Positions 56,211 to 61,720 of a stretch of DNA of 64,000 nt are shown piece after piece. How positions within the stretch are numbered: the stretch's first letter is position 1; each line of letters begins with the position of its first letter. The position numbers were made by a program, and so were the translations under genes. The notes under the pieces are model-generated. The model had not been told where the DNA came from and did not search any database. It saw only the letters and a list, made by a program, of their open reading frames with translations. This stretch comes from Sulfurisphaera ohwakuensis. Lineage in GTDB: Archaea; Thermoproteota; Thermoprotei_A; Sulfolobales; Sulfolobaceae. The stretch is taken from positions 2,366,872 through 2,430,871 of the forward strand of contig NZ_CP045484.1 of NCBI RefSeq assembly GCF_009729055.1, read 5' to 3'.

Positions 56211-57632
56211 ATGTCAGACAAGCCTACAAAAGAACAAATCTATAAAAAAGTGGCTGAGTTGACTGCAAGAATTGATAGATTACCTACTATGGTTTTACCA
56301 GTCTCGGTAATTCTTGCATTAGCATTTGGATACTTTATAGCATTGTACGATGTAATAGATATTGGTATTGCCTTCTCCGGAACATCCCTACCATATACTG
56401 GCTTAACTTCAACCCAGGCTTCTATTGTAGTCTCTATGGGATTAGCTGGCTATATTCCAGGGGCAATATTGTTGGGATTTTTTGCTGATAAGTACGGTAG
56501 GAAACCAATGTTAATGTTTACTGCATTACTAACAGCTATAGGAAGCTTAGGAAACGCATTATCATTTAATTTCCCAATGTTTATAGTCTTTAGATTTATA
56601 ACTGGTATGGGAATAGGCGGTGATTTAATATTAGTACCGACTTACATAGTAGAAATGGTTCCAGCAGTAAAAAGAGGACAGTATTTTAACCTAGTTTATA
56701 TTGCTGGATGGGCTGGTTTAGGATTAGGACCCTTTTTAGCCTCAGTAATTGACTTATTAAACCCAGCAATTGGTTAGAGGGTAATATTCTTAATTGGTGC
56801 TACTTTAGCATTTATAGTATTGATAATAAGGTCTCATGCTAGTGAAACTGTAAGAATGTTAGCGTTAAAAGGAAAACTTGATGAAGCTGAAAAAATTGTA
56901 GCTGAAATGGAAGAGAAAGCAATACAGAAGACAGGTATGCAATTACCTCCTTATAATCCCTTAAATTATAAGGTTGAGGAGAAAAACCCATTCACTGTAT
57001 TTAAGAACAAGAAATACGCAATAAGGATAATCTCAGTAATGTTGTCTATCTTCTTCTTCTATTTCGGAGAATATCCATACTTAACAGAGTTCTTATTATG
57101 GGCTGGAGGATTATCAAATCTTACAAAGGCCCAGATTAACGAGTTAACGTTTTTATATGGTTTGGCTGGTGTTGCAACATTTTTAGGGGCCATAGCATTA
57201 AGATTCATAGTTGAAAAAGTAAGGAGAGCTATTTTGACTACTTTAGCATATTTTGTAGGAATGTTATTAGGAGTATTAGTTGCTACCATAGGTACTATTA
57301 ACTATAATATACCCTTAGCATTTGGAGGAATGCTATTGACAAACTTCATTGGTGTAGGATGGAGTAATCAGTTAAATTACTTAAATGGAACTGAAAATGT
57401 GCCTACATATGCTAGGGCAACATCGTTTGCTTTCAGTGACGGTGCTGCCCATTTGGGAGCTGCAATATCAACAGCTATAATACTGCCAATTATAAGTAGT
57501 ATAGGTGCTCTACCAACTTGGGTGTTATTCCAAGTACCAATGGTTATTATGGGGATTGTATTAATCTTTGTATTACCTAATACAATTGGCCAAAGTTTAG
57601 AGAAGATAAATGAAGCTGAAGCAGGGGTTTAA
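56211..57632 (+). pseudogene. MFS transporter gene interrupted by one in-frame TAG
   Basis: A single frame codes a 12-span sugar/carboxylate-type MFS carrier (GFFADKYGRKPML; RFITGMGIGGDL) of 473 positions, broken by TAG at 56775-56777 between NPAIG and RVIFLIGATLAF. Relatives have Trp at this place (G-W-R), so a TGG-to-TAG change is the simplest explanation. Both parts stay in the same frame with normal coding character and no other damage, indicating a very recent mutation or readthrough. As written the first product has 188 residues (about 6 spans). Confidence 0.8.
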
Positions 57633-59678: not shown

Positions 59679-60317
59679 ATGATAAGGATTGGAAAAATAG
59701 GGAAAGATGAAGAAGAGTATTATTTCGCTTTTGATAATGGAAAATGGAGGCAAATTAAAGTCAAAAATAAGATATGGCGTTCTATAAAGGGTTTAAAATA
59801 TATGGAGGGAGAAATTGATGAAAAGGATGGAACTATTATAAAAAGAGTATACAAGAAGAGTGAAAGAGTATTTGTTAATTATTACGTAATTGATAATAGC
59901 AATTTGAAGGAACTGGAACTAAAATGTGAGGAGAAAGATAAAATCCTTGGGAAAACTCTTTATGTCTGTGATTATGAAAATAAAATAAAATTTTATCAAT
60001 ATGAAGGAGACCTTTTTGAGGATAAATTACAACTGCAGAATTATATTTACAATAAATTAAAAAAGGAATTTGATAATGAACTTATAAAGGTTGAAGGAAA
60101 AGTTAAGGTTGAGACGGATAAGGCGTATCTTTTCTCTATTAAAGGAAAGGAAATTTGGATTCCAAAGAGTATTTGTACTTTAGGAGAAGGTTATATTGAA
60201 TTACCACTTTGGTTTGCAAAAAGTAAATCATTAATAAGTGACAAAGAGTACAATCAAATAATTAATGAGAAGATGAAAAAGTACGAAGATGAATTAAGCA
60301 AGATTGTATTCATTTAA
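59679..60317 (+). CDS. hydrophilic protein of unknown function
   Basis: A 212-residue Lys/Glu-rich alpha/beta protein (KDEEEYYFAFDNGKWRQIKVKNK at the start). Two cysteines only. It follows the two-span membrane protein by 21 nt and may be cotranscribed. No family recognised. Confidence 0.6.
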   Translation: MIRIGKIGKDEEEYYFAFDNGKWRQIKVKNKIWRSIKGLKYMEGEIDEKDGTIIKRVYKKSERVFVNYYVIDNSNLKELELKCEEKDKILGKTLYVCDYENKIKFYQYEGDLFEDKLQLQNYIYNKLKKEFDNELIKVEGKVKVETDKAYLFSIKGKEIWIPKSICTLGEGYIELPLWFAKSKSLISDKEYNQIINEKMKKYEDELSKIVFI

Positions 60318-60651
60318 TAAAATGATGTTTCTCGTCCTCTACTATCTTAGCTATCTCTCCACTTATGTCAAAGTTTTTATAGTAAAAATCCAAGGCTTGA
60401 GACTCTACTTTGTTCACTACTCTTCTTATTGCAGCCATACCCATTATTCCAACTAATATTCCTACAACAAAGAGAGTATAATAAACTGGTTTTTCCAGCA
60501 AACTCCTTTTAAACTTCTTAAAATATTCCCAATGTGAAAGTTCATTTTCATACGCTATACGAAATCTTTCCTCTTTTCTTATTATATAAATCCCTTTTGC
60601 TAAGCCAGTAGCTCCAGCTTCACCTAGTAAAGCAAGAAAGTATTTATCCAT
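60310..60651 (-). CDS. minimal COQ7-like diiron membrane-associated protein
   Basis: A 113-residue protein with the complete COQ7/ferritin-like ligand set in order: E11 (GEAGATG), E37 and H40 (NELSHW), E83 (KVESQ), E107 and H110 (EDEKHH). The GExGA...IY, ExxH...F and DExxH contexts match demethoxyubiquinone hydroxylase, and the hydrophobic stretch at 55-75 (PVYYTLFVVGILVGIMGMAAI) sits where COQ7 has its membrane-contacting loop. It is much shorter than COQ7 (about 170-215). Expected chemistry: O2-dependent hydroxylation at the membrane. A quinone-biosynthetic role (caldariellaquinone) is speculation; a rubrerythrin-like role is the alternative. Confidence 0.6.
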   Translation of the reverse strand: MDKYFLALLGEAGATGLAKGIYIIRKEERFRIAYENELSHWEYFKKFKRSLLEKPVYYTLFVVGILVGIMGMAAIRRVVNKVESQALDFYYKNFDISGEIAKIVEDEKHHFIK

Positions 60652-60724
60652 GTGAAACTTTTAGATAAATGAGAATAAAAAGAAGTGTAAACATTTTTAT
60701 TTCATGCTACAAAGATGATAAATA

Positions 60725-61720
60725 ATGAGTATTGATGAAATAATTAATAATCCAGAGATATTTAACAAGTTAGTTTCAAAAGTTTATGAACAAATTAAAA
60801 ATGACATCATAATAAAAAGATTAGATGGTATAGAGGAATTAACCAGAACTACTTATGATCATGTAGTTCTTATATGGGAAAAATTAGCAGATATTGAAAG
60901 TAAAATACTAAAATCTTATGAAATATCAGAAAATTATTCAAAACAGTTATATGAAATTAATAAGAGGCTTGAGGAAATAGAAAAGATTCTTCAAGAGCAT
61001 TCTAAGAGGCTAGAGGAAATGAATAAAGCACTGTTGGATCATAGTAAAATTTTAGAGGAGCATTCTAAGAGGCTTGAAGAGTTAGAGAAGGCTCTTCGAG
61101 AACACTCTAAATTTTTAGAGGAGCATTCTAAGAGGCTTGAGGAGATGAATAAAGTATTGTTAGAACATACTAAACTTCTTGAAGAGCATTCTAGGAAATT
61201 TGATGAGGTAAATAAGAGGCTTGAGGAGCATAATAAAATTCTAATGGAACATGCAAAGGTAATAGAAGAGCTTGTCAAGTCAATTGGAGAATTTAAAGAT
61301 TATGTGGATAAAAGATTTACAAGACTAGAAATAATGTTCAACTCGTTTACGTCTAGAGCCGGTCACCATATTGAAAAAACCATGTTAGAGTTATACAAAG
61401 AGGGATTAATACTTCATGGCATTAATGCTTCAAATATTAAACATGGTTTTATAGAAAGTAAGAAAAAAGGAAAGAAGTACGAAGTGGATTTCTACGAGAC
61501 TAATGATTATATTTACATTTTCGAGATTAAGAACTTATGTGATGATACAGCAGCTATTGAGCAATTAGAGAACAGGAAGGAGGCTTTTGAAGAGAACTTT
61601 CCAGGAAAAAAGGTTAAAATGTTTCTAGTTTGTAATTCAATACAAGATAAGATTAAGGAACTAGCAGAAAGTGAAGGTATAGTAGTAATAACTGGAAATG
61701 TATTTATGCTTTCTGACTAA
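60725..61720 (+). CDS. DUF3782-like coiled-coil PD-(D/E)XK protein
   Basis: A 331-residue protein. Residues 60-205 are one long coiled coil made of about eight 11-18-residue repeats of the form EEHSKRLEEMNKAL. The C-terminal 110 residues have a nuclease-like core: KKGKKYEVDFYETND and IYIFEIKNLCDD (D...ExK), then KMFLVCNSI. This is the archaeal DUF3782 layout, frequent in Sulfolobales and often present in several variants per genome. DNA cleavage is predicted from the motif only. Confidence 0.8.
   Translation: MSIDEIINNPEIFNKLVSKVYEQIKNDIIIKRLDGIEELTRTTYDHVVLIWEKLADIESKILKSYEISENYSKQLYEINKRLEEIEKILQEHSKRLEEMNKALLDHSKILEEHSKRLEELEKALREHSKFLEEHSKRLEEMNKVLLEHTKLLEEHSRKFDEVNKRLEEHNKILMEHAKVIEELVKSIGEFKDYVDKRFTRLEIMFNSFTSRAGHHIEKTMLELYKEGLILHGINASNIKHGFIESKKKGKKYEVDFYETNDYIYIFEIKNLCDDTAAIEQLENRKEAFEENFPGKKVKMFLVCNSIQDKIKELAESEGIVVITGNVFMLSD
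60981..61215. repeat. internal coding repeats of the coiled coil
   Basis: The DNA encoding EEHSKRLEE is repeated at least four times; gagcattctaagaggct recurs nearly unchanged near 60991, 61059 and 61122. Such near-identical copies invite copy-number change by recombination. Confidence 0.7.

Follow-up and report, generated by a model that had tools for sequence, protein, structure and literature searches.

A stand-alone, minimal COQ7-like protein, predicted to be a diiron protein, is conserved in Sulfolobaceae

What might a 113-aa archaeal protein do with six residues arranged like the diiron ligands of a quinone hydroxylase? The gene lies on the minus strand at 60310..60651, stop codon included, in a 64,000-nucleotide stretch (the window) of the genome of Sulfurisphaera ohwakuensis, a thermoacidophilic archaeon, and its ORF starts with ATG. 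Is it a gene at all? Orthologues occur in 27 of the 31 Sulfolobaceae genomes, one per genome, with one copy in the host's own genome, and close relatives compared with each other give a dN/dS of 0.10-0.20; the ORF is a real gene under selection. One genome, G020, also carries a second copy with several in-frame stops (C1:138286-138548, L028/L029), so that the family has been duplicated there and one copy has since decayed to a pseudogene.

The initial annotation had named E11, E37/H40, E83 and E107/H110 as metal ligands, and these residues are found exactly where it put them. It had also held that loss of ligands among orthologues would speak against its reading; none is lost. E11, E37, H40, E83, E107 and H110 are identical in 27 of 27 aligned orthologues, whose pairwise identity falls as low as 37%, and belong to the 23 columns of that alignment that do not vary at all; for any six given columns, the probability of complete invariance by chance is ~4e-5. 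Even H110 is kept, yet the C terminus of the window protein is only three residues further, and the longest tail seen in an orthologue is ~11 residues. There is a high likelihood that the six conserved residues form a metal site, and the metals held by this COQ7-like protein are very probably a pair of irons.

How far does the likeness to COQ7 extend? COQ7, or CLK-1, is the 5-demethoxyubiquinone hydroxylase (PF03232; PDB 7ssp, 7sss), an iron enzyme of coenzyme Q synthesis that uses O2 and NADH to hydroxylate a demethoxyubiquinone-type ring. The ligands of the human protein we take to be E60, E90/H93, E142 and E178/H181, with ligand identity after UniProt and numbering from the PDB sequence. 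The order E, ExxH, E, ExxH, pointed out at the outset, is common to both proteins. In a joint mafft alignment of the 113-aa protein, human COQ7 (PDB sequence), three bacterial COQ7 proteins and ferritin-VIT1 domains, all six ligands are superposed on those of COQ7; the bacterial genes were found with a Pseudomonas COQ7 sequence, used as bait only. By these alignments E11 of helix 1 (60619..60621, minus strand) pairs with human E60, the GExGA motif around it reading GEAGA in the window protein and GEYGA in human COQ7. The E37-x-x-H40 pair of helix 2 (60532..60543, minus strand) corresponds to E90/H93, and E83 of helix 3 (60403..60405, minus strand), followed by invariant A86, F89 and Y90, to E142. 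The last helix supplies E107-x-x-H110 (60322..60333, minus strand), the counterpart of E178/H181 by alignment and predicted structure. The glycine before E11 (G10) and Gly64 are common to every COQ7 row, and Gly71 to most. Ligand spacings are 26/3/43/24/3 against 30/3/49/36/3 in COQ7, so that only the loops have been shortened, by 4, 6 and 12 residues. The proteins differ further in length, 217 aa for COQ7 versus 113, and in the region of COQ7 past the last ligand, which the Sulfolobaceae protein lacks.

The Pfam profiles give a graded answer. The COQ7 profile scores the window protein at 20.0 bits (E 5.8e-4), below the gathering cut-off of 23.5 bits; it matches 21 of the 27 orthologues (best E 8.4e-5), and the genome search flagged no orthologue above the PF03232 cut-off. 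The Rubrerythrin profile (PF02915) gives no match to the window protein and reaches a single orthologue of the 27, at 7e-4. COQ7 is thus the leading family in the profile comparison that the initial annotation had proposed, although the window protein itself falls short of the threshold. These results also bear on the idea that the protein scavenges peroxide, O2 or NO in the manner of rubrerythrin or ferriperoxin. Such a role would draw on the same diiron ligand class and suit an aerobic, metal-rich habitat, and S. tokodaii has a known diiron-type protein, sulerythrin (PMC9589262). The lone Rubrerythrin match, the lack of a rubredoxin domain and a hydrophobic, membrane-type helix that is unusual among soluble erythrins make scavenging an improbable function.

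Does the fold agree with the profiles? An AlphaFold2 model built with the orthologue alignment as input (pLDDT 96.3, pTM 0.88) has helices at residues 3-25, 28-45, 53-70, 72-93 and 98-108, and it predicts a ligand-bearing ferritin-like bundle; absence of a four-helix bundle would, for the initial annotation, have spoken against its reading. Foldseek puts human COQ7 in the first two places among PDB structures (probability 1.00, TM 0.73). VIA-align gives Z 14.6 and 13.8 against human COQ7, both over 113 of 113 residues, the former at 2.3 A; the next family has a Z of 12.2. Because high Z scores are common among helical bundles, a control search was run with the ferritin-like domain of the host's own ferritin-VIT1 fusion (pLDDT 91.7). 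For the control, Foldseek places COQ7 at rank 11 (E 0.66), and COQ7 is not among the VIA top 50, which are ferritins, Dps and erythrins; it is thus the 113-aa protein in particular that prefers COQ7. The third Foldseek match of the latter is MJ0754 of Methanocaldococcus jannaschii (PDB 3q4n, 3q4r), which shares an archaeal ferritin-like fold but has VIA Z scores of 12.0-12.2, level with Dps and bacterioferritins, and is annotated as hypothetical.

What then should the protein be called? The COQ7-like reading first put forward holds for the fold and the ligand set, on the evidence of Pfam, the structure with its negative control and the joint alignment; it does not hold as strict membership of COQ7 by the Pfam cut-off. 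The protein is a compact COQ7-like variant, and we do not file it under COQ7, because it scores below the cut-off of Pfam and lacks the C-terminal region. The COQ7 architecture, it would seem, can shrink this far with all six ligands kept. To our knowledge, the host archaeon is not recognized as a maker of ubiquinone.

COQ7 is one of two families near this protein. Full-length members of the 113-aa family are found only in Sulfolobaceae; outside that family of archaea its profile matches only ~300-aa proteins, over residues ~17-110, and those inspected consist of VIT1 with a fused ferritin-like domain. By sequence these VIT1/CCC1 fusions are the nearest archaeal proteins, with five of the six ligands and Gly71, before helix 3, in register in the joint alignment. 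Their helix 1 appears to be out of register: in the mafft alignment E11 faces residues other than Glu, and the profile matches begin at residues 16-29. The fusions themselves match the COQ7 profile in 11 of 14 cases and Rubrerythrin in 14 of 14, and hhalign scores the ferritin-VIT1 domains at 92% (E 7e-7) versus 23% for COQ7, the COQ7 alignment being very shallow (three bacterial sequences) and underpowered, so that the nearest family is not settled by sequence alone. In helices 2-4 the protein resembles both COQ7 and the ferritin-VIT1 domains; in helix 1 and in its fold as a whole it resembles COQ7. Probably COQ7 and the ferritin-VIT1 domains are neighbouring branches of the ferritin-like superfamily.

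Might the protein then serve iron homeostasis, as a stand-alone ferritin-like ferroxidase that oxidizes iron or hands it over at the membrane? The kinship just described, in the exclusive matches to ~300-aa proteins outside Sulfolobaceae and in the hhalign score, favours this, and so does the presence of VIT1-family transporters in all 31 Sulfolobaceae genomes, including a stand-alone one that could use a separate ferroxidase. Weighing against it, the 113-aa ORF has no fused transporter and no VIT1 match, a ferritin-VIT1 fusion is already present in the genome, and both profile and fold draw the fusion domain towards Rubrerythrin and ferritins, the 113-aa protein towards COQ7. The apparently unlike helix 1 and the narrower distribution of the gene (27 of 31 genomes, against 31 of 31 for VIT1) point the same way, and we consider an iron role rather unlikely. 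The host's own fusion is L108 (C1:1529600-1531200), and the genome also has a stand-alone VIT1.

Searches further afield gave little. A single-protein scan of the genome contigs found no relatives, and an alignment scan added Sulfolobaceae sequences only. No relatives were seen in viral contigs, no significant match in plasmids or, by sequence, in the PDB, and no match in NCBIfam or PHROGs; the best weak PDB matches of the profile are designed Due Ferri diiron helices (E 0.26). Across Thermoproteota many ~100-aa frames match the COQ7 profile in its first third only, and the one that was read, L127, resembles an erythrin-type ferritin-like protein of half length. The phylum-wide COQ7 profile matches consist mostly of ferritin-VIT1 fusions and of ~100-aa frames with half-length matches, and are not counted as relatives.

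The part of the protein that most invites thoughts of a membrane lies between helices 2 and 3. The hydrophobic loop noted there at first sight is real: it is a predicted helix of residues 53-70 (60442..60495, minus strand), supported by alignment, structure prediction and hydropathy, with a Kyte-Doolittle maximum of 2.07 at residues 57-75. E53, P55 and G64 are invariant within it, as is G71 just beyond. COQ7, too, joins helices 2 and 3 by a hydrophobic segment in which glycines are conserved, and there it binds the membrane; by that analogy membrane tethering of the 113-aa protein is plausible.

How might such a protein work? Four antiparallel ligand-bearing helices would hold a carboxylate-bridged diiron site that, as in COQ7, might be reduced and then activate O2; the hydrophobic helix would present the substrate, an aromatic or quinone lipid, from the membrane for hydroxylation. 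The electron donor may differ from that of COQ7, since the C-terminal region of COQ7 is absent. By analogy, the chances that the protein carries out COQ7-type hydroxylation of a membrane lipid or quinone seem to us evenly balanced. The same structural arguments would serve a diiron oxygenase acting on some other membrane lipid, be it isoprenoid, carotenoid or tetraether, and the sequence names no substrate; the closest fold is specifically that of a quinone hydroxylase, COQ7, and we regard a non-quinone lipid as very improbable.

If COQ7-type hydroxylation is the function, which quinone might be the substrate? The carriers of the gene include genomes G009, G023 and G030, which we take to be M. 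sedula, S. acidocaldarius and S. tokodaii. Caldariellaquinone and sulfolobusquinone are confined to Sulfolobales, and their biosynthesis was stated to be uncharacterised in 2026 (PMC13386864); M. sedula is documented to contain the quinones CQ, SQ and BDTQ (PMC11750793). The most attractive substrate would be a derivative of these benzothiophene quinones or one of their ring intermediates. The protein is a good candidate for a caldariellaquinone-type ring step, an assignment that we make tentatively, by analogy and at less than even odds. It might even be the first oxygenase to be identified in caldariellaquinone/sulfolobusquinone biosynthesis and, of the COQ7-type quinone hydroxylases known, the smallest, which is a slightly more doubtful proposition; if true, an archaeal lineage would have a COQ7-like solution to quinone hydroxylation. 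The family-level match of gene and benzothiophene quinones is real, but it would hold for any Sulfolobaceae-specific gene, and is circumstantial. The protein does offer one near-universal Sulfolobaceae gene to test for the uncharacterised sulfur-quinone pathway.

An obligatory role is opposed by the absence of the gene from four genomes (G001, G011, G021 and G022), where a profile search with no positive-control genome finds none even at E 10; the same profile picks up the rest of the family at E below 1e-45. COX1 oxidases are retained in all four, and G011, of the Metallosphaera group, has rearranged Tat and AsnC neighbours and no copy of the gene there. G021 (~50% GC) probably belongs to Sulfodiicoccus, as G022 probably does. 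Sulfodiicoccus has doxDA homologues, and their A. ambivalens counterpart reduces caldariellaquinone (PMC8551704). Respiring lineages of this sort would need another enzyme, unless the step is optional. Among the carriers, G019 (~38% GC) probably belongs to Stygiolobus azoricus, for which an obligately anaerobic life is described (PMC8551704). G019 carries COX1 genes, and so does not decide whether the function depends on O2.

Do the neighbours of the gene say more? A short divergent intergenic region (60652..60724) suggests, from its sequence, that the gene has its own promoter, and the gene appears to be monocistronic. Across relatives there is no conserved operon around it and no tie to quinone genes. 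The neighbours are genus-specific, being Tat and AsnC genes in Metallosphaera and an apparent aminopeptidase, judged from its sequence, in Saccharolobus and Sulfuracidifex-like genomes; an operon-based functional link was rejected, since the neighbours differ by genus. In the window the divergent neighbour (60725-61720, plus strand) encodes a long coiled-coil protein that weakly matches the C-terminal nuclease domain of NucS; it is broken in G030 and was not detected at the locus in G029. A COX1-type terminal oxidase subunit gene lies 58 kb from the 113-aa protein gene, at ~961-2292 of the window (plus strand; genome 2367832-2369163). Nearer by, at 56211-57632 (plus strand), two adjacent ORFs (188 and 270 aa) resemble the pieces of a single MFS transporter gene interrupted by a stop or a frameshift.
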